DNA of 50,594 nt, taken from a virus. Each line of letters opens with the position of its first letter. Position 1 is the stretch's first letter. The notes under the pieces were generated by a model, which was given only the letters and a program-made list of their open reading frames with translations, was not told the DNA's origin and searched no databases. A program made the position numbers and the translations under genes. The stretch spans positions 1 through 50,594 of the IMG/VR virus record IMGVR_UViG_3300044984_002789, one strand, 5' to 3'. Shown in pieces: positions 22,909 to 50,502 of the stretch.

Positions 22909-23652
22909 TTAAATGTAAAATGATTTAAATTCAAACGTATTAAATATTTCCTCATTTGGGTAGCCACGGATGTTAGATACAATCTTACATCCGTTGTACT
23001 CAACATCTAACCCATCGTGCGCATGACCGTAAATCCAATACGATACATTGTTGATATATTTCAACAGATCTGCGCAATAACAACCATTAGACTCAAAATC
23101 ATCCTGATGATGTGGGCTGGCCGTTATAATCGATGGGCTATGATGTGAGACAACAACATTAGTATACTTACTATAGTTTACACTAGCTAAAAATTTAATA
23201 AACTTATCATGTTCTTCTAACCATGAATAAGTATTAAATCTATCACCACCCGCTGTAATCTTTCTAAAATCGCTTAAGAATTTATTAGCAGTCATAATAG
23301 TGCGGGCATCTAACGCATTAAATGATGTCCATCCAGTACCACCAATAAATTGAATGTCATCTATAACTAAACACTCGTTGTGTAATACATGTAAATTATC
23401 AAGCTTATAAAAACTTTTTAATTTTACAATATCACTAAGATCACCATCAAAAAACTCATGGTTACCAGCAACATATATTACGTGGTTAAATCTATCTGCA
23501 ACTGTATTAAAAAATAACGCAACATGCTTTTCATGTAATTGATTAATTTGAACAATATCACCAGCTAACACTAACACATCACCTGATAAATCAGGATGTA
23601 CACGATACTCACGATATTCTAAGTGCATATCAGATGCATACGTTATCTTCAT
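22909..23652 (-). CDS. Calcineurin-like metallophosphoesterase
   Basis: 247 residues with all five motifs of the family: DMHLE (D8, H10), GDIV, GNHEF, SHHSPS and GHAHDG. Two metal ions bound by these residues hydrolyse phosphate esters. Related phage and bacterial proteins are annotated only as phosphoesterases; the substrate here is unknown. It is the last gene of the leftward block carrying the clamp loader and stands 2 bases after the coiled-coil/zinc gene. Confidence 0.85.
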   Translation of the reverse strand: MKITYASDMHLEYREYRVHPDLSGDVLVLAGDIVQINQLHEKHVALFFNTVADRFNHVIYVAGNHEFFDGDLSDIVKLKSFYKLDNLHVLHNECLVIDDIQFIGGTGWTSFNALDARTIMTANKFLSDFRKITAGGDRFNTYSWLEEHDKFIKFLASVNYSKYTNVVVSHHSPSIITASPHHQDDFESNGCYCADLLKYINNVSYWIYGHAHDGLDVEYNGCKIVSNIRGYPNEEIFNTFEFKSFYI

Positions 23653-31910: not shown

Positions 31911-33098
31911 CTATAATGCTTCATATATAACACATTCACCAAACGGTGGTGTAGCACTTTGATTACCTTTCACGATAAACAATGTATCACAATAATCAGG
32001 ATCACCCCAGCTACCGTTAGGATAACCGTCAGTAAACATAAAGAACTTTTTAGGTTGAATATCGTTTTCTTTCATCCAATCCCAATTAACCTCAAAATCT
32101 GTACCACCATTACCTACAGGTTCGTAATGTAATAGCTCATATGCATTATCCTGAGTAATACGTTTATGATTATATACATCTGTATCAAAACACCAAATAT
32201 CAATAGCAAAATCTTGATACTGTTCAACAATACCTACAACTTCACTTAAGAACGCTCTTGCATCATCATTGCAAATACTACCACTCATATCAAGCGCAAT
32301 TGCAATCTCAATAGTCTCTTCTTGAATAAGTCCAGGTAACACTACATTATATGCCCAACCTTTCCTGTTTGGTCTAGCATACGAGTAATTAGTTTTAACT
32401 AAACTTTGAATATTCATACAAACTATATCACGCCAGCTCAATTTAGCTTCAGTTAAGTCGCTAATCATTCGGCTAATTGCATTTGGAGTACTACCAGGAT
32501 CAGCTGATGCTGCCTGAATCATAGCTTCTCTAATCTCATTACGAATATCCTGCAATTCTTCCTTTGATAATACTGGTGCGTTAGGGTTGTCGTTAAAATC
32601 ACCGTTAATATGAGTATCTAACAACTCACCTAATTTATCCATATAATCATCTAATGAAAGCTTATCAGCATTATCGTATAAGTCATCATAGATATCTTCC
32701 CATGCCCAACCACGATACTTATCGTTTTGCAGTATCGGAATGGCTGTAATACGCTCACCAATCTTATCATCTACTAATATTTGATTAATTGCATAATCTT
32801 GCGCAAAGTTTGCTAATCTACGATTTCTTGAACCAGTTCGACCAAAATGATCAAATGCGCAATGTAAGATCTCATGAGCAAATAAAAACTCGATATTTTT
32901 AGGTGATATTTCATCTATAAATTTTGAATTATAAAAGAAGTTCCTACCATCTGTACCTGCGGTAGTTACCCATGAATCAGCATTAGTAATACGCATACGG
33001 CTTGCCATATTACCAAAAAATGGTAACCTAATCATAAGTCCAATACGACCACATACTAATTTTTCTTCAATTGCCGCAACGTCTACTTCTTGAGTCAT
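31911..33098 (-). CDS. DUF2201-type metallopeptidase-like/VWA domain protein
   Basis: 395 residues. H75-E-I-L-H79 with H84 is a zinc-binding HExxH...H site of the DUF2201 N-terminal domain. The C-terminal half is a VWA domain with the metal-ion site DMSGS near residue 270, later T in GGTDFEV and D in FTDGYPNG. Such proteins pair with MoxR-type AAA ATPases; here the MoxR gene is 14 bases upstream. The pair is related to CobS/CobT-like chelatase machines and similar genes occur in T4-like cyanophages, but the target is unknown. AGAGGA precedes the ATG. Confidence 0.82.
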   Translation of the reverse strand: MTQEVDVAAIEEKLVCGRIGLMIRLPFFGNMASRMRITNADSWVTTAGTDGRNFFYNSKFIDEISPKNIEFLFAHEILHCAFDHFGRTGSRNRRLANFAQDYAINQILVDDKIGERITAIPILQNDKYRGWAWEDIYDDLYDNADKLSLDDYMDKLGELLDTHINGDFNDNPNAPVLSKEELQDIRNEIREAMIQAASADPGSTPNAISRMISDLTEAKLSWRDIVCMNIQSLVKTNYSYARPNRKGWAYNVVLPGLIQEETIEIAIALDMSGSICNDDARAFLSEVVGIVEQYQDFAIDIWCFDTDVYNHKRITQDNAYELLHYEPVGNGGTDFEVNWDWMKENDIQPKKFFMFTDGYPNGSWGDPDYCDTLFIVKGNQSATPPFGECVIYEAL

Positions 33099-33112
33099 GG
33101 GTTATCCTCTGA

Positions 33113-34195
33113 TTAAGCTGTTAATGCTTTAATAAAATACTTACCGTACTTGGTATGAAATGCATCCCAATTAGGTAATTTAGATGGAGTAATATCAAAC
33201 TTATATACAACGATCGCAGATCTCGCACCCATGATAGTTACTTCAATAGGGAAATTATTCGACATAAACGTGAAGAAGTTATCTAACATTTGATGCCAAC
33301 CTTCAACGTTATTTGCTAATCTATCTTTAAGCTCGTACGACATAGATACAGTTAGTGAATACATAGCACTAATATCACTAATCTTTGCTTGCGTAATCTT
33401 ACCATCTAAGATATCACCAGGTCTAGGTAACTGGCCAGCTACTTTACGATGACTCATGAACTTCGTACCAACACCGTCACCAATCGTACCTGATACTAAT
33501 GCATGCAACGTTTGACTATCAATCTCACCTTCATCCCAAACGAGATCTGAAAGGAACTTCCAGGTACGTGGAGTAGCAAATGCTTTGCTGTTATCGGTTG
33601 ATTTATACGTGTTAAGATCATTTGGTGCAAAGCTCAAATAACCGACTACTTCAGGGTGAATTTGATTTTCAATTGCCCATTCTTGCCAATCTTCAAAATC
33701 AACTTTTAATTCAAGATGAATAAAACGGTTAGCTAACGGAGCAGGAATACGGTATGTAACTCCTCGATCACCCTCTCTATTACCAGCAGCAACAATATCG
33801 ACACCCTTTGGCAAGACATATGTACCACAACGACGATTTAAAATTAGCTGATACGCTGCAGCCTGTACAGCAGGTGGTGCTGAGTTTAACTCATCGAAAA
33901 ATAAAATAGCATTGCTATCTGGATCACTTGGAAGTTCAGGTGGTGACGACCATGCAGTTGTGCCTAGATTTGGATTAAAATGTAAAACACCTTTAAGATC
34001 AGTTGGATCCCATAACGCTAATCTAATATCGATAATAGGTCGCCCAGCTTCTGCACCAATAGAGTGCACGATATCACTTTTACCTATACCAGGTGCACCG
34101 TGTAGGAATACAGGTCTACGAACTTTAATTGCACGTGCAACTGCACGCTTTGCTGCGTTTGGACCAACTGTACGAATACTTTCTGCTGCTGACAT
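33113..34195 (-). CDS. MoxR-type AAA+ ATPase
   Basis: 360 residues with Walker A HGAPGIGKS (32-40), Walker B ILFFDELN, sensor 1 VAAGN and an arginine-rich region after (PAPLANRFIHLEL). This is the MoxR/CobS clade, whose rings remodel a VWA partner protein. The partner gene follows directly. It has its own sigma70-like promoter at 34258-34286. Confidence 0.85.
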   Translation of the reverse strand: MSAAESIRTVGPNAAKRAVARAIKVRRPVFLHGAPGIGKSDIVHSIGAEAGRPIIDIRLALWDPTDLKGVLHFNPNLGTTAWSSPPELPSDPDSNAILFFDELNSAPPAVQAAAYQLILNRRCGTYVLPKGVDIVAAGNREGDRGVTYRIPAPLANRFIHLELKVDFEDWQEWAIENQIHPEVVGYLSFAPNDLNTYKSTDNSKAFATPRTWKFLSDLVWDEGEIDSQTLHALVSGTIGDGVGTKFMSHRKVAGQLPRPGDILDGKITQAKISDISAMYSLTVSMSYELKDRLANNVEGWHQMLDNFFTFMSNNFPIEVTIMGARSAIVVYKFDITPSKLPNWDAFHTKYGKYFIKALTA

Positions 34196-34309: not shown

Positions 34310-35308
34310 CTACCTTACGTTAATTAAATGCGATTTGAATATTAGCCAACAATTGGTCCAGGTCCATCGTGCAGATGTTGACTTTACAGCATCTCTATCA
34401 AGCAGTAAGCATTTTTGAACAGACTCCTCAAAATTGTTGAGCATATATCCGTTAACACCAGGTTCTAATATGTCTAATGGACCTGGCACGTGAAATGCTG
34501 CAACGGGTGTACCTAACGATAGTGCTTCAATAATAACTATACCAAACGTATCAGTTCTACTTGGAAAACAGAATACATCAGCATTTTGATAATAGTTTGC
34601 TAATGATTCACCTCTATGATATCCCACGAAATCAACCGCAGGGTAACGCTTCTCTAGATCTTTACGATATGGACCATCACCTACTATTTGAATAGTGTAC
34701 TTATCTGTTGATAATGAGCATAAATCATCTAATCCTTTTTCTTTTGATACCCGGCCTACATATAACAAAATTGGCTTAGATCTAGTTGTACGTCCTCGTG
34801 ATGGCGATAAGTTTGTACGATCTACTCCACGTGTCCAAGGAACTACACTACCACTAAACCCATGCGCTTGTAATTCATTAACCATAGTTTGCGTTGTGGT
34901 TAATACTCGATACGATTTTTCATGAAACCAGCGAACGTACCCATAAGTGATACATTCTGGTATACGATATAATTTATTTAAGAATTCAGGAAATTTTGTG
35001 TGATACGATGTATTAAAATTTAAGTCGTGTTTAACACAATAATTGCGTATAGCTAAGCCTATTGGACCTTCTGTAGCAATATGAATATAACTAGGATTAA
35101 TTTCTTTTATAATCTCTGCAATATCGGTTACTATGCTTAGTTTAACTTCATTGTAGCCAATTGCGGAAAAATGTGTGAACATGCTAGGATCGACATATTG
35201 AATAATATAATCATCCTTACGTGCTTCGATTTCAATGTTAGTGAAGGTCGTTACAACTCCATTAACTTGATCAAGTAAATTATCCGTCGCTATTAAGATT
35301 GTTTGCAT
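34310..35308 (-). CDS. GT4 glycosyltransferase, Agt/SqdX-like
   Basis: 332 residues. Family features: QVNGVVTTF near the N-terminus, SYHTKFPEFL, VPWTRGVD, LLYVGRVSKEKGL, VGDGPYRKDLEKRYP, VDFVGYHRGE, VFCFPSRTDTFGIVIIEAL (GT4 E-x7-E) and GTPVAAFHVPGP. This is the SqdX/Agt-like branch that adds sugars to diacylglycerol. Directly upstream, after a 56-residue gene, is a PlcP-like phosphoesterase. In marine proteobacteria these two genes form the plcP-agt pair that replaces phospholipids by glycolipids under phosphate limitation. The product is shorter than bacterial Agt by some tens of residues, mainly between domains. Confidence 0.72.
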   Translation of the reverse strand: MQTILIATDNLLDQVNGVVTTFTNIEIEARKDDYIIQYVDPSMFTHFSAIGYNEVKLSIVTDIAEIIKEINPSYIHIATEGPIGLAIRNYCVKHDLNFNTSYHTKFPEFLNKLYRIPECITYGYVRWFHEKSYRVLTTTQTMVNELQAHGFSGSVVPWTRGVDRTNLSPSRGRTTRSKPILLYVGRVSKEKGLDDLCSLSTDKYTIQIVGDGPYRKDLEKRYPAVDFVGYHRGESLANYYQNADVFCFPSRTDTFGIVIIEALSLGTPVAAFHVPGPLDILEPGVNGYMLNNFEESVQKCLLLDRDAVKSTSARWTWTNCWLIFKSHLINVR

Positions 35309-35463
35309 TTGGTAACGACCTTGAAGTCAGGAAATTTTAATTTGAAGCTCATAGTATTTGCTACTGCATGACATTCTGCTTCTGAGTTAAACGTTAATTT
35401 AATCTCACCAGGTATATCTGTTGGATCATTAACGTGCATTACCGATAATAATAAAAACCACAT
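35293..35463 (-). CDS. Small exported protein (56 aa) between the glycosyltransferase and phosphoesterase genes
   Basis: ATG 35461-35463 has GAGG 9 bases upstream and the frame runs to TAA 35293-35295, overlapping the glycosyltransferase start by 16 bases. The product has a very short hydrophobic start (MWFLLLSVMH), a strand (EIKLTFNSEAEC) and two Cys (residues 31 and 53). No family recognised. Confidence 0.6.
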   Translation of the reverse strand: MWFLLLSVMHVNDPTDIPGEIKLTFNSEAECHAVANTMSFKLKFPDFKVVTKCKQS

Positions 35464-35467
35464 AATT

Positions 35468-36226
35468 TTATTCCTCGTTTATTATTTTGTCCCAAACAAT
35501 TATTTCCCACTCACCAGAAAAATGCTCTACTAATGCCGTCATGCTCTCCACCCAATCACCGTCATTCATATAAGCAATGCCGTTGATATCTTTGATCTCC
35601 GCGTGGTGAATGTGACCACATATAATACCGTCGAACTTTCTTTTTGCACAATAGTTAACTAAGTTATCTTCAAATTTAAACATGAAGTCTACAACAGACT
35701 TAACTCTATATTTTACGTATTTGCTAATTGACCAATACTCCCGACCAAATTTACCACGTATAACATTTAAATAATGATTTACTCGTAGCAGCACATCGTA
35801 TCCTGTATCTCCAATAAATCCTAACCATGGAGCGATAGCTGATATACCATCAAATAAATCACCATGAATTACGAGATATCGTTTACCATCTACTCCTATA
35901 TGTTCGTATTGATTTACTACTTTAATATCACCAAATCCAATATTATATGGGATTAGAGGACGCAAAAATTCATCGTGATTACCTGTTACGTATATCACTG
36001 ATGCACCTCTTCTTGCATGCTTTAATATTTTTTGAACCGCTGTTGTATGGCTTTGATCCCAGTACCATTTATTTCGTTGAATCTTCCAACCATCTATTAT
36101 GTCTCCAACTAGATAAAGTGTTTCACATTTGTTATACTTTAAAAAGTTTATTAATTCCAACGACTTACAATCACGTGTACCTAAATGTACATCAGATATG
36201 AATATGCTCTTATAGTGATGTTTCAT
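35468..36226 (-). CDS. PlcP-like metallophosphoesterase (COG2908)
   Basis: 252 residues with the calcineurin-like motifs: FISDVHLGT (D12, H14), GDIIDGW (D42), GNHDEFLR (N83, H84), IHGD and GHIHHAE. The long SISKYVKYRVKSVVDFMFKFE segment and MNDGDWVES are typical of the bacterial PlcP/'UDP-2,3-diacylglucosamine diphosphatase-like' branch, including Sinorhizobium SMc00171. That branch cleaves head groups from phospholipids. The neighbouring Agt-like transferase supports the lipid role over LpxH-type lipid A synthesis. A late-like GATAAATA box precedes it. Confidence 0.75.
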   Translation of the reverse strand: MKHHYKSIFISDVHLGTRDCKSLELINFLKYNKCETLYLVGDIIDGWKIQRNKWYWDQSHTTAVQKILKHARRGASVIYVTGNHDEFLRPLIPYNIGFGDIKVVNQYEHIGVDGKRYLVIHGDLFDGISAIAPWLGFIGDTGYDVLLRVNHYLNVIRGKFGREYWSISKYVKYRVKSVVDFMFKFEDNLVNYCAKRKFDGIICGHIHHAEIKDINGIAYMNDGDWVESMTALVEHFSGEWEIIVWDKIINEE

Positions 36227-36251
36227 ATATTTCCAGGTAGTTAGCTGCTAG

Positions 36252-36259
36252 TATTTATC
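36252..36259 (-). promoter_or_regulatory. Late-type promoter box of the PlcP-like gene (GATAAATA)
   Basis: Minus strand GATAAATA, one mismatch to TATAAATA, 25 bases before ATG 36226. Confidence 0.35.
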
Positions 36260-36324: not shown

Positions 36325-36408
36325 ATGGACTTTTTTAGCGCTATTGCTGAGGTTGGATTCCCAATTGCTGCTGCGTGTGCAGCTGGATATTTCGTGTTAT
36401 TGAAGTAA
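36325..36408 (+). pseudogene. Truncated small membrane protein gene (27 codons)
   Basis: GGGAGATTAAA lies before ATG 36325; the 27-residue product starts MDFFSAIAEVGFPIAAA and stops at 36406-36408. I know intact relatives that continue for some 20-30 residues with a transmembrane segment after GYFVFL. Here the sequence passes into the start of the next gene in another frame. A near-direct repeat (GGATTCCCAATTG at 36355, GGATTTCCAATTG at 36420) offset by 65 bases links the two genes. A deletion between related neighbours is the likely cause. Upstream, AGTACTAAA occurs twice (36286-36305), but no promoter is clear. Confidence 0.45.
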
Positions 36409-36668
36409 TTAACAAATATGGATTTCCAATTGTTGCAGCTGGTGGAATGGGGTACTTTGTATACTTTATATGGCTATGGACAGCAAATGATATTAAGCCA
36501 CAAATAAGCAAGGCGCATGATGAACTTATCGCGTTAATTGATAGAGTAAGAATGCTGGATAATGATCTTATCCGGTTAAATGAAAAAGTAAATGTTGTGT
36601 TATACTTACGTAGATTAACACCGACATACGATCAACCACCTGATACTTCCGAGAGTAATAAAGAATGA
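36375..36668 (+). CDS. Small membrane protein, start uncertain
   Basis: The recognisable protein begins V-I-E-V-I-N-K-Y-G-F-P-I-V-A-A, a hydrophobic segment (GMGYFVYFIWLW), then a helix ALIDRVRMLDNDLIRLNEKVN. In relatives the product starts with Met just before EVINKYG. Here no ATG is available: the only in-frame start codons are GTG 36375 with no ribosome site, or an ATT at 36399. Translation may depend on coupling with the 27-codon gene, or this is damage. It overlaps the lipase gene by 4 bases (ATGA). Confidence 0.5.
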   Translation: MCSWIFRVIEVINKYGFPIVAAGGMGYFVYFIWLWTANDIKPQISKAHDELIALIDRVRMLDNDLIRLNEKVNVVLYLRRLTPTYDQPPDTSESNKE

Positions 36669-37408
36669 TTTCACAATTAACATTATACGAACAGTCACTT
36701 TTAATGGCTAGACTTAGCAGCTTAGCTTATTTTGATAATCAATCATTTACAGAATTAGGATACGATAGCGTGTTTATCGATCATAACGATTCTCAAGCGT
36801 ATGTACTTTGGGATATAGATGATATTATCTTAGTTAGCCGTGGAACGCAACCTACTGAACTTGCTGATATCGAAGCTGATATTCAATTTAATTTAGTTCA
36901 AAGCATAGGTCAACACGGCTTGGTTCATTATGGTTTTAAGCGCAGTGTTGATCATGTCTGGAGTGATATGTCTGCATTACTTACAAAATACAGTAATAGA
37001 AAAGTCTGGTGCACTGGGCATAGCCTAGGTGCAGCAATGGCTACTATAATTTCTGCTAGATGCTGTGGACTTAAAAACGTAGCTACTCCAACATTGTTTA
37101 CCTTTGGTAGTCCAAGAGTAGGTAATCAAGATTACGTTAATTACTTGTCATCACAAGGTATCGAACATTATCGTTGGGTAAATAGTGCGGATGTAGTTGC
37201 TCGTAATCCTATTGCACCTTACAAACACCATGGCAATCTCTGCTACTTTGATCACCATGGTAGATTAGCCGTAAGAACTGAATGGCAAAGAACTAAAGAC
37301 CGTGTAAAAGGCTTTTTTGCAGGTCTACGCCGTGGTAGCGTTAGTTTATTTGCTAATCATATGATAGACGGTTACATTACTAATATAGATAAATTAACCA
37401 TTAAGTAA
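36665..37408 (+). CDS. Class 3 lipase-like alpha/beta hydrolase
   Basis: 247 residues with SRGTQ (oxyanion-hole strand), the nucleophile elbow GHSLG (Ser 120), FGSPRVGN, and VNSADVVAR (catalytic Asp 176) followed by KHHGN (His). These are the three parts of class 3 lipases such as fungal triacylglycerol lipases. There is no signal peptide. It could act on host lipids during infection or lysis. It is the only sizeable plus-strand gene in a leftward region and stands next to the PlcP-Agt-like pair. Confidence 0.8.
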   Translation: MISQLTLYEQSLLMARLSSLAYFDNQSFTELGYDSVFIDHNDSQAYVLWDIDDIILVSRGTQPTELADIEADIQFNLVQSIGQHGLVHYGFKRSVDHVWSDMSALLTKYSNRKVWCTGHSLGAAMATIISARCCGLKNVATPTLFTFGSPRVGNQDYVNYLSSQGIEHYRWVNSADVVARNPIAPYKHHGNLCYFDHHGRLAVRTEWQRTKDRVKGFFAGLRRGSVSLFANHMIDGYITNIDKLTIK

Positions 37409-44858: not shown

Positions 44859-45794
44859 ATGAGACCAATTAGATACGTATGTGCTCAACCTGCGCAAACA
44901 TACTTTACCTGGCAAGTTGAAGTTATGATTAATAATTTTATGCGAAACGGTGTTCACCCAAATTATATGGATATCGTCTGTTCTATACCAGTCGGTGAAG
45001 GTATTCCCGAGTATTGGTCTAAGTTAGCTAATAGATATAATATGGTGCGATTCTTTTTTTACGAAGATGATAGAGTAGACTCACCATATCAGCCAAGTGT
45101 GCGACCAAATATATTAAAAAAACATTTTAAAGCTCACCCATACCTAAAGGACGAGGTAATCTTTTATCACGACAGCGATATAGTGTTTACTAGACCAGTT
45201 AATTGGAGTCATTACTTAGAGGATGACAACTGGTATTGTAGCGATACTATCTCTTATATCGGTACAAGATATATCAAAGAAAAGGGTGAGGATATCTACA
45301 CCAATATGTGCCGTATAGTTGGTATAGATGAATCGATTCCGATTGAGCAAGAAGCTGGTGCAGGTGGTGCGCAGTATATAATGAAGAATATTGATCATAC
45401 GTTCTGGGAAAAAGTAGAACGTGATTGTGATGCTCTATATCAATACTTTGTTGATAGAAGACTTGAATATCCAGATATTCACCCAGATATTGAAATTCAA
45501 GCATGGACGGCTGATATGTGGGCGGTGTTGTGGAATGGTTGGCTAAGAGGTGCAAAATCATTTTGCCCGGCTGATCTGGAGTTTGCATGGGCAAATGGAT
45601 CTAAAGATCAATGGGATAACTGTGCAATATATCATAACGCAGGTGCATTGCGTGATGATGATCATCTGTTTTATAAAGGTGCGTATGTTGGTAATCTACC
45701 TTACGATATTGTAAATACTTATAATCCAACATATGCAACTTATTATTATGTTGAGGAAATTGTAGCTACAGCAAAGGTGACCTGTTTACGCTAG
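44859..45794 (+). CDS. Glycosyltransferase-like protein with DxD
   Basis: 311 residues. The sequence VIFYHDSDIVFTRP carries a D-x-D metal motif after a hydrophobic strand, as in GT-A glycosyltransferases. IEQEAGAGGAQYIMKNIDHTFW and WTADMWAVLWN follow. It resembles the family that includes hydroxyproline arabinosyltransferases and phage relatives. The acceptor and sugar are unknown. Convergent with galE, overlapping it by 29 bases. The ribosome site is weak. Confidence 0.65.
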   Translation: MRPIRYVCAQPAQTYFTWQVEVMINNFMRNGVHPNYMDIVCSIPVGEGIPEYWSKLANRYNMVRFFFYEDDRVDSPYQPSVRPNILKKHFKAHPYLKDEVIFYHDSDIVFTRPVNWSHYLEDDNWYCSDTISYIGTRYIKEKGEDIYTNMCRIVGIDESIPIEQEAGAGGAQYIMKNIDHTFWEKVERDCDALYQYFVDRRLEYPDIHPDIEIQAWTADMWAVLWNGWLRGAKSFCPADLEFAWANGSKDQWDNCAIYHNAGALRDDDHLFYKGAYVGNLPYDIVNTYNPTYATYYYVEEIVATAKVTCLR

Positions 45795-46764
45795 AATACC
45801 AGTTCCATGCATCTATACACATTTGTTCAATACTATATGTTGGTGCCCAATCTGTAATTGATGTAATTAAATTAGTTGACGCGTAACTATTAGCAATATC
45901 ACCAGGTCTACGATCACAAATTATATGTGGTATAATTATATTATTTGTTTTTTGAAAAGTGTGTATCAATTGCAGCACAGATACTCCGATACCCGTACCT
46001 ACGTTTGCTATAACATAGCTTGGTGAATTAAGGTGTTCAAGTACCGATATGTGACCTTGTGCAAGGTCCATAACATGAATAAAATCTCGCACTGCACTCC
46101 CATCTATAGTGTCATAATCATCACCGAATACCTGCACTAGCGGAATATCTTTGTTAGCGGCTCGACAAATAATAGACATAAGGTTAGTTGGTCTAGAATC
46201 TCCAATTAACCCGCTACTATGAGCTCCGACAGGATTAAAGTAACGTAAGCATGCAATCGTCCAGGTCTTGTCTGACTCATATAGGTCAAGTAGCATATCC
46301 TCAATTATTGACTTAGTTCTACCGTATGGGCTCGATGGTTGTTTAATTGAAGTCTCTTGCACAGGCACATCAATATTACCGTACACTGCTGCTGATGATG
46401 AAAATACTAATGTCTTCACATTATATTTTTTCATTGCAGTTAATAAATTAATAGTTCCCATCACATTATTAGTATAATACTTATGTGAGTCAATTAATGA
46501 TTCATCTACGAACTTACAGCCAGCAAAATGAATTACTGCATCAAATTTATTGTGCTGAAATACTTTATCAATTGCATTAGCATCTTTAATATCTACTAGA
46601 TGGAAACTGGGCCGAACAGTTGTGATGTGTTCAATTGCATCTAATACACTCTGTGAACTATTTGATAAGTCATCAATAACTGTGATTTTATACTTGGGTT
46701 GCAATAAGGTTATTGTGTGAGATCCAATATATCCGGCACCACCAGTTATTAGTATATGCTTCAT
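45766..46764 (-). CDS. galE: UDP-glucose 4-epimerase
   Basis: 332 residues: GGAGYIGSH (NAD-binding Rossmann start), VIDDLSNSS, VIHFAGCKFVDES, SSSAAVYG, YGRTK (catalytic Tyr-x3-Lys), RYFNPVGAHSSG and the C-terminal RPGDIANSYAS. Standard short-chain epimerase that interconverts UDP-Glc and UDP-Gal, probably supplying the neighbouring glycosyltransferases. It overlaps the next gene by 4 bases (ATGA). Confidence 0.92.
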   Translation of the reverse strand: MKHILITGGAGYIGSHTITLLQPKYKITVIDDLSNSSQSVLDAIEHITTVRPSFHLVDIKDANAIDKVFQHNKFDAVIHFAGCKFVDESLIDSHKYYTNNVMGTINLLTAMKKYNVKTLVFSSSAAVYGNIDVPVQETSIKQPSSPYGRTKSIIEDMLLDLYESDKTWTIACLRYFNPVGAHSSGLIGDSRPTNLMSIICRAANKDIPLVQVFGDDYDTIDGSAVRDFIHVMDLAQGHISVLEHLNSPSYVIANVGTGIGVSVLQLIHTFQKTNNIIIPHIICDRRPGDIANSYASTNLITSITDWAPTYSIEQMCIDAWNWYSSVNRSPLL

Positions 46765-48483: not shown

Positions 48484-49893
48484 ATGATAATTAAATCTGC
48501 CACGTACGGTGGAGTAGATTTTACTACAACAGTTGTACAGTATATATTAACTAACAGCCTTAGTGATTTACGCGTTCCCAATGCAATGTTTGGAGATCCT
48601 CAACCTAACGTCCGTAAATATTTAACAGTGGTGTATGAGATCGATGGAATTGAGCACTACGCGGGCACAGCTGATGATTCAGGTGAACCTGTAACAACAG
48701 CTGGTGCGTATAACGCAAAGTCACAATTAGTACAATTATATCATCAGTGGTGTAATACACCTATGGATATTAATGAGCACTTACCAACCTTAATGCGGTT
48801 TGCAAAAAAATGTGATCATATTACCGAAATGGGTGTTCGAGGTATAGTGTCTACATACGGATTATTGATGGGTAAACCAAAAACAATGGTATCATACGAT
48901 ATATGCGATTGCGATTGGTTACCTGTCCGAGCTATGGTGGAGCAGGATACTGATTTTAAATTTATTCAGGCTGACACTCGAGAATGTATCATTAACCCTA
49001 CTGATTTACTATTCATAGACACCCTACATAATTATAATCAATTAAAAATTGAATTAGCTCGCCATGCCGATAAAGTAAAAAAATATTTAATATTTCACGA
49101 CACATCATCATTTGAGTTTCATGGTGAGACAGAGGAAATTGGTTTGTGGCCTGCAATTGCTGAGTTTTTGGATGATAACCCTGATTGGCGTATATTAGAA
49201 CGGTTCCATCATAATAACGGATTAACAATTTTAGCTAGAACTCCAGCTATACCACGAGTACTGGTTATGACAGCAAATACCGGAGCTTCAGGATCAAACG
49301 ATATGGTTGAACAAGTGGGTACAGAGGTGGATTTTATATGTATTGACAATGATAACTACCCCTTACGCAATAATTCGTTATCACCTCGAATGCTAGGTAA
49401 AATGCCAAAAATGCTTGCCTGGGAAATGTACCCGGGTTACGATTACTACATATGGATTGATATTAGGTTTAAATTTAGTCGATCAGATGCAGTAGGGTGG
49501 TTTATTAATCAATTACATGATAATGATGCTGCGTTCTTTGTACATCCAGGTCGAAATAAAATTATTGATGAGCTGATATTTGTTGAAAATGAAATTACAA
49601 ATAATAACGAATACTTCATCTCACGATACTCTGGCGAAAACATGCGATCACAAGTTGAAACATACTTAGCGGATCCTGAGTTTGTAGATAATACACTATT
49701 TGCTGCAGGAGCATTTATATACACTCCTACATTAGTGGCAAATGAAAGCTATAACCTCATGAAAGAATGGTTTTACCAAAACTGTGTATGGTCTGTTCAA
49801 GATCAACTTAGCCTACCGTACGTATTACAAAAATTTAATACTAGGTATACTACAATACCTGAGTCTATATTTGATTGTATATACTTGAAATAA
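48484..49893 (+). CDS. Three-domain protein: DUF3395-like, methyltransferase-like, DUF616-like
   Basis: 469 residues. Residues 1-75 repeat the ATYGGVDFTTTV...GDPQPNVRKYLTV pattern of the gene at 46761. Residues about 80-250 resemble CmcI-type SAM methyltransferases (EMGVRGIVSTYGLLM, VSYDIC, LLFIDTLHNYNQLKIELARH, FHDT). Residues about 255-469 resemble DUF616/TOD1-type glycosyltransferases (MLGKMPKMLAWEMYPGYDYYIWIDI, HPGRNKIIDEL, QDQLSLPYVLQK). A single product could methylate and glycosylate the same glycan. No ribosome site is outstanding (GGACG 10 bases before the ATG). Confidence 0.55.
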   Translation: MIIKSATYGGVDFTTTVVQYILTNSLSDLRVPNAMFGDPQPNVRKYLTVVYEIDGIEHYAGTADDSGEPVTTAGAYNAKSQLVQLYHQWCNTPMDINEHLPTLMRFAKKCDHITEMGVRGIVSTYGLLMGKPKTMVSYDICDCDWLPVRAMVEQDTDFKFIQADTRECIINPTDLLFIDTLHNYNQLKIELARHADKVKKYLIFHDTSSFEFHGETEEIGLWPAIAEFLDDNPDWRILERFHHNNGLTILARTPAIPRVLVMTANTGASGSNDMVEQVGTEVDFICIDNDNYPLRNNSLSPRMLGKMPKMLAWEMYPGYDYYIWIDIRFKFSRSDAVGWFINQLHDNDAAFFVHPGRNKIIDELIFVENEITNNNEYFISRYSGENMRSQVETYLADPEFVDNTLFAAGAFIYTPTLVANESYNLMKEWFYQNCVWSVQDQLSLPYVLQKFNTRYTTIPESIFDCIYLK

Positions 49894-49926
49894 TTACCAT
49901 TTACAACCTACTACAGAGCTTAATAT

Positions 49927-50502
49927 ATGCTTGTTGAATTTATAATCCCAACATATGATAGAATATACCCACTACATGCAATGCTATCATCACTCATGGC
50001 TCAAACTGACGATGATTGGTCTGCTCATGTACTAGTGGATGATACATCTCACGAATTAATGGATTCAATTATAGCTCAATATAATACACCTAAAATCTAT
50101 TGCACATATATGGATAAGCGTTATAACGATTGGGGTCACACTCCTCGTGAATTAGGTAAACAAATGAGTAAAGCTGATTACGTAATTATGACAGGTGATG
50201 ATAATTACTACATGCCAATCTTTGTAGAAGAGCTTCGTAAAGCTGTAAATGAAACAGGAGCTGATTTTATATATTGGGATATGATTCATTCGTACGAACC
50301 GTTTAGATATCAATTATTTGACTGTAAGCCGAGACTCGGTGAAATTGATATGGGTGCGTACGCTACGAGAACATGGTTAGCTCAGCAAATACATCTATCA
50401 TCTAATATGTGTGCTGATGGTGAGTTTGTTGATGAAATAAGAACAAAATACACATGCTCACCAATGCATAAAATAAACAAGGTGTTATTTGTTCACAATT
50501 GA
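49927..50502 (+). CDS. Family 2 glycosyltransferase
   Basis: 191 residues. VEFIIPTYDRIYPLHAMLSSL and VLVDDTS mark the nucleotide-binding half of a GT2 enzyme; TGDDNYYMP supplies the D-x-D-like metal site. It is short, close to the catalytic core alone, without the C-terminal membrane or acceptor domain. It overlaps a partial minus-strand gene by 18 bases at its end. Confidence 0.72.
   Translation: MLVEFIIPTYDRIYPLHAMLSSLMAQTDDDWSAHVLVDDTSHELMDSIIAQYNTPKIYCTYMDKRYNDWGHTPRELGKQMSKADYVIMTGDDNYYMPIFVEELRKAVNETGADFIYWDMIHSYEPFRYQLFDCKPRLGEIDMGAYATRTWLAQQIHLSSNMCADGEFVDEIRTKYTCSPMHKINKVLFVHN

Follow-up and report, generated by a model that had tools for sequence, protein, structure and literature searches.

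The closest described system is the bacterial PlcP-Agt operon, which is known from S. meliloti, SAR11 HTCC7211, P. aeruginosa (PA3219-PA3218) and Methylosinus OB3b. The P. aeruginosa pair has been proven to make glucosyl-DAG (PMC8528852). The phage cassette described here contains the same enzyme families in the same order with the same active-site residues, and Pho-box-type control appears in many members of both. It differs by an extra 56-aa gene, by a GT2 that often stands in for Agt and by its location in T4-like phage genomes. A second point of reference are the cyanophage genes pstS, phoA and phoH, which are under host PhoB control. Like the cassette, they are auxiliary metabolic genes for which binding sites of the host PhoB are predicted, and pstS is sometimes a neighbor of the cassette. 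While the cyanophage genes act on phosphate uptake or stress, the cassette would act on membrane lipids. LpxH (UDP-2,3-diacylglucosamine hydrolase) shares the COG2908 fold with the phosphoesterase of the cassette but belongs to a separate clade, carries other motifs and is expected to use another substrate.

A viral PlcP is also encoded by a cultured phage. The 'putative UDP-2,3-diacylglucosamine hydrolase' of Pelagibacter phage Mosig (QOI69083.1) is 48% identical to the protein studied here, and its gene adjoins a PstS-like gene annotated as putative phosphate ABC transporter. Neither a cassette GT4 nor a GT2 was found anywhere in the Mosig genome, and the paper on this genome is silent on genes for phosphate or lipids. 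An earlier note on this DNA knew of no phage in which the plcP-agt pair had been studied; our literature searches, which did not cover preprints and most subscription papers, likewise found no report of it. The GT2 in the GT4 position, the plcP-linked small protein and the Pho-box-like repeats upstream of viral plcP appear to be undescribed. The cassette is the phage version of a pathway known from bacteria, new in its third gene and its exchanged glycosyltransferase.

Organization of the cassette and its phage context

The window, i.e. the whole analyzed stretch of 50,594 nucleotides, is a 50.6-kb IMG/VR record with T4-type structural and replication genes. Genes for a baseplate wedge protein, a tail-fibre attachment protein/RNA ligase, a DNA ligase, a clamp loader and thymidylate synthase reside on the same contig as the cassette, so that its viral origin is firm. 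The baseplate wedge protein is closest to those of the jumbo phages XacN1, CM1 and PA5oct, from which we infer that the window probably represents part of the genome of such a phage.

Three ORFs on the minus strand form a tight operon. plcP (35468–36226; 252 aa) encodes a metallophosphoesterase of the PlcP phospholipase C type and is followed by the 56-aa gene (35293–35463) and the GT4 gene (34310–35308; 332 aa), whose product is a predicted diacylglycerol glycosyltransferase. A gap of four bases separates plcP, ending at 35468, from the small gene, starting at 35463, and the latter overlaps the start of the GT4 gene by 16 nt (35293–35308), suggesting translational coupling. The pair proposed in the earlier note is thus real, including the small gene between its two members, but the frequency of the cassette, the replacement by GT2 and the membership of the small gene had escaped that note.

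Several other genes of the window were recorded. A GalE-type UDP-glucose 4-epimerase (45766–46764, minus strand), which scored 367 bits against a cut-off of 262, might be the source of UDP-galactose for the GT4 or for further glycosyltransferases encoded at 48484–50502. Divergent from the cassette (36375–37408, plus strand) lie a small protein matching phrog_18771, which also weakly matches a holin family, and a class 3 lipase (PF01764); no such lipase was present in the related loci first fetched. Downstream of the cassette (31911–34195, minus strand), an AAA ATPase (phrog_1297) and a DUF2201 VWA/metallopeptidase-like protein resemble a MoxR-VWA pair; the ATPase is kept near plcP in a few relatives (L081, L082, L106 and L108). 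A second metallophosphoesterase at 22909–23652 (minus strand; phrog_1649, 1e-40) is unrelated to plcP.

Assignment of the phosphoesterase and the glycosyltransferase

In profile searches the phosphoesterase matched Metallophos (PF00149, 3e-10), but general profiles cannot separate PlcP from LpxH. Over 234–242 aa it is 52% identical to the SAR11, 50% to the P. aeruginosa (PA3219) and 47% to the S. meliloti PlcP. In contrast, identity to LpxH is only 22–28% over 82–120 aa. A tree was calculated with four LpxH sequences, the S. meliloti PlcP (L311, which we take to be this enzyme from its sinI/sinR-like neighbors, with reference to SMc00168-SMc00171), the P. aeruginosa PlcP (L312, presumably PA3219 as judged from the neighboring azoR3 and cyaB) and a coarse sample of seven viral representatives. 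The window protein came to lie deep within PlcP, with the enzymes of P. aeruginosa and S. meliloti on either side of it, whereas the four LpxH sequences formed a group separate from all PlcPs (SH-aLRT 100). A second tree with enlarged viral sampling resolved two large groups of viral PlcPs, next to sequences from Pelagibacteraceae and Campylobacterota. The metal-ligand motifs are present, as are the PlcP signatures GNHDE and MNDGDWVE, while LpxH has GNRDF.

These data bear on the possibility that the phosphoesterase is LpxH-like and takes part in making or modifying lipid A, while the GT4 would add sugars to LPS or some surface glycan. Databases do label relatives as UDP-2,3-diacylglucosamine hydrolase, and the best PDB match of the confident structure model (pLDDT 89.7) is LpxH (Z 19.6). 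This match does not discriminate, since both enzymes share the COG2908 fold and no solved PlcP was among the PDB matches to the model. With the LpxH profile TIGR01854 the protein scored 34.5 bits, far below the cut-off of 190 bits. Taken with the clade separation at 100 support, the GNHDE motif and the identity to PlcP over the whole length, an LpxH function is highly improbable and close to refuted, and the COG2908 phosphoesterase is of the PlcP type, as had been proposed.

The glycosyltransferase matched Glycos_transf_1 (3.5e-24) and Glyco_transf_4 in profile searches. A first GT4 tree had very long outgroup branches and weak support, with WaaB inside Agt, and was rebuilt with fewer outgroups. 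In the resulting tree the window GT4 joined the Agt group alongside Agt1 of P. aeruginosa and Agt of SAR11 (bootstrap/SH-aLRT 100/99), while P. aeruginosa Agt2, WcaL and WaaG remained outside. Mutagenesis of SAR11 GTcp has identified residues that the enzyme requires to bind its donor and diacylglycerol (PMC8231724). All 14 mutagenized residues are kept in the window GT4, including the His103-Asp253 dyad, and they cover the catalytic dyad, the UDP-sugar motifs and the diacylglycerol-contacting residues. In the fetched SAR11 relatives all 14 occur where the publication places them, and the numbering is thereby validated. The Asp of the motif FPSRTDTFG marks the Agt group, other GT4s having Glu. 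Agt2, which makes glucuronosyl-DAG and falls outside the Agt group, has Glu at this position, as do some viral copies outside the group (FPSRWETFG), and the motif alone is therefore no proof of a diacylglycerol acceptor. A frameshift at the GT4 C-terminus was excluded, as homologues align to the end.

The Agt/SqdX-like GT4 of the earlier note is borne out by these results. Affinity to polysaccharide GT4s or placement of the phosphoesterase in LpxH would have refuted the pair; both trees point the other way, and together with the motifs they exclude a polysaccharide GT4. We regard the predicted identity of the cassette enzymes as near certain. PHROGs contains no dedicated family for viral PlcP, GT4 or GT2 and gave weak matches only.

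Linkage, the small protein and exchange of the glycosyltransferase

Viral contigs were scanned with each cassette component separately. plcP was adjacent in 78 of 80 GT4 loci, the remaining two being cut by contig ends, and in 75 of 79 GT2 loci; loci fetched with the small protein alone had plcP in 78 of 80 cases. Nearly all exceptions in the three scans are contig-end cuts. The one clear break is L325, a 327-kb record in which the small gene and GT4 are present while plcP is missing altogether. Among 239 distinct viral plcP sequences, GT4 came next in 133, GT2 in 80 and neither in 13, while 11 were cut. These proportions depend on the queries used and are not census figures. Hundreds of phage sequences from the environment contain the cassette. 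Most fetched bacterial plcP loci display the same plcP-agt order, including PA3219-PA3218. Some P. aeruginosa plasmids (L312, L485) carry a chromosomal plcP-agt1 segment and a plcH-plcR-agt2 segment.

As bacteria have the same pair, the cassette might consist of misbinned bacterial sequence or of host DNA carried along as a passenger, without a phage role. However, phage structural genes lie on the window contig, and 39 examined carrier records contain T4-type gp23 capsid in 20 and terminase in 21 cases; these T4-type proteins are encoded on the long contigs, and most of the others are short fragments. Large viral PlcP groups are distinct from the bacterial ones, plcP exists in the cultured SAR11 phage Mosig, and dN/dS values of 0.07–0.14 across all four cassette genes, although approximate because derived from ungapped pairwise estimates, indicate purifying selection. 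Barring large-scale contamination, a passenger or binning artifact is refuted, and the chance that it applies is negligible.

The small protein consists of 56 residues with two invariant cysteines and is under comparable constraint (median dN/dS 0.12). Its model is a beta-beta-alpha-beta fold (pLDDT 95.5). A fold search against the PDB gave no match at E 0.001 or better, and the only structural look-alikes are phage proteins of unknown function. No match to it was found in 80 bacterial plcP loci. It probably acts as a helper or an anchor for one of the two enzymes. Because it is kept beside plcP with either glycosyltransferase, we infer that it serves PlcP rather than the glycosyltransferase.

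In loci lacking GT4, a GT2-family enzyme (PF00535) of 235–240 aa occupies the GT4 position, often with the small gene retained. This unrelated enzyme fills the position in about a third of the sampled phages, and all ten GT2-type records inspected (10/10) were without a GT4 anywhere. At least seven GT4/GT2 changes are required on the PlcP tree. In the PDB, the GT2 resembles polysaccharide and teichoic-acid transferases. Two unrelated folds in one position beside a constant PlcP suggest that both share an acceptor, most simply the diacylglycerol made by PlcP; this is an inference, as the acceptor of the GT2 is unknown. The interchange amounts to a natural experiment that points to diacylglycerol. 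In bacteria, too, the glycosyltransferase partner of plcP varies (PMC4796936). At one viral locus (L063:5992-8190), plcP is followed by a cytidylyltransferase-like/mannose-6-phosphate-isomerase-like fusion and a nucleotide-sugar transferase-like gene, which replace GT4/GT2.

Upstream elements and the possible link to phosphate

A late-like box had been reported to precede plcP. The octamer GATAAATA at 36252–36259 (minus strand) is indeed present and matches TATAAATA at 7 of 8 positions, but within the window alone it lacks significance, with 164 such sites observed and 241 expected, and was discarded as strong evidence on its own. Upstream of viral plcP, in contrast, 7-of-8 matches are enriched (80/213 versus 237/2,130 random positions), which makes it probable that the box of the window is a genuine −10 or late-type promoter element.

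The Pho box consensus consists of tandem CTGTAAC-like heptamers with an 11-bp period. Inspection of viral plcP upstream regions revealed tandem heptamers of this form. When sequences matching CTGTMAYNNNNCTGTMAY with at most two mismatches were scored, the repeat was found in 85 of 212 viral plcP upstream regions compared to 4 of 1,060 shuffles. After removal of similar upstream sequences the repeat still preceded 30 of 105 plcP genes, compared to 9 cases among 564 genes of other kinds (Fisher P=1e-18). An unbiased count of spaced words also brought it up, as GTAA-N7-GTAA, in the group with the strongest enrichment. It also occurs upstream of phage pstS (19/20) and of Nitrobacter plcP. A TAAATA element follows the repeat at 11 or 21–22 bp, corresponding to one or two helical turns. 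At many viral plcP loci, TAAATA often ends only 0–8 nt ahead of the first NTG, a spacing that points to transcripts which are leaderless or very short.

Box-bearing loci are mostly of the window type (80) and rarely of the Mosig type (5). Upstream of the window plcP itself no Pho box was found, the best match having five mismatches, which is chance level, and the nearest relatives (L069 and L071) also lack a Pho-box-like site. A TTAGTAC tandem with a 10-bp period upstream of the window plcP was excluded from the count. The repeat of the relatives looks like a host phosphate-starvation switch; its function as a Pho box cannot be proven by sequence. Some predicted Pho boxes of a cyanophage failed to bind PhoB when tested (PMC10976474).

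PstS is encoded within 5 kb of viral plcP in 22 of 236 loci, always on the same strand. The phage PstS is 61% identical to that of Undibacterium, which merely hints that some carriers infect Burkholderiales. Another lipid-modifying enzyme, a fatty acid desaturase of the DesA type, is encoded near viral plcP in 26 of 236 loci (L460:5308-6012 and 25 others).

We consider it likely, at a probability of about 80%, that the cassette is a phage lipid-remodelling operon. PlcP, as a metal-dependent phospholipase C, would cleave host phospholipids (PE, PG) to diacylglycerol and a phospho-alcohol, and the Agt-type GT4 would transfer glucose, galactose or glucuronate from a UDP-sugar onto the diacylglycerol. 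The membrane would thereby retain its lipid mass while phosphorus is released, which may be used for phage DNA. Our data directly concern gene order, family placement, active-site conservation, linkage, purifying selection, the glycosyltransferase swap and the Pho-box-like sites of relatives. Activity, lipid products, action in infection and use of the phosphorus are inferred. Membrane remodelling during infection is probable, although the activity of no phage copy has been measured. The more detailed proposal, for which the odds are about even, is a widespread phage module that the phosphate-starvation regulator of the host would switch on and that would turn phospholipids of the infected cell into glycolipids. 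Its parts would be PlcP, a small helper found only in viruses, and glycosyltransferases of two unrelated folds that can replace one another.

Phosphate salvage by the cassette is plausible, but it is an inference. The Pho-box-like sites of relatives support a link to phosphate, but the window has no such site. Since the product of PlcP is a phospho-alcohol, free phosphate would require a further enzyme. A 350-kb genome contains 700,000 P atoms, and the lipids of a small marine cell were measured to contain about 540,000 (PMC4796936). The lipid phosphorus of such a cell would fund less than one 350-kb genome, so that salvage is credible only in larger hosts. An E. coli-sized cell has about 20 million lipids. 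Its lipid phosphorus could fund about 28 such genomes.

The small amount of lipid phosphorus relative to a jumbo genome in small hosts also favors an explanation without phosphate, namely that glycolipids alter envelope charge and permeability and thereby block superinfection or protect the infected cell. Both P. aeruginosa and E. coli become more resistant to polymyxin through Agt-made glycolipids (PMC8528852), neither the window nor its closest relatives have a Pho-box-like site, and the desaturase neighbors suggest broader membrane tuning. On the other hand, the Pho-box-like sites and pstS neighbors of relatives tie the cassette to phosphate starvation, and PlcP would be superfluous for a membrane change achieved by the glycosyltransferase only. 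Membrane tuning for reasons other than phosphate is the less likely purpose but stays a serious rival of phosphate salvage.

Phages need much phosphate, and the known phage phosphate genes serve uptake or stress. If the lipid-remodelling reading is true, phosphorus of the host membrane would be a new nutrient route for viruses, for which the cultured SAR11 phage Mosig with its plcP offers a clean experiment. Infected cells would then differ in lipid make-up, which matters for environmental lipid biomarkers, and surveys that use plcP as an indicator of phosphorus limitation would be affected.
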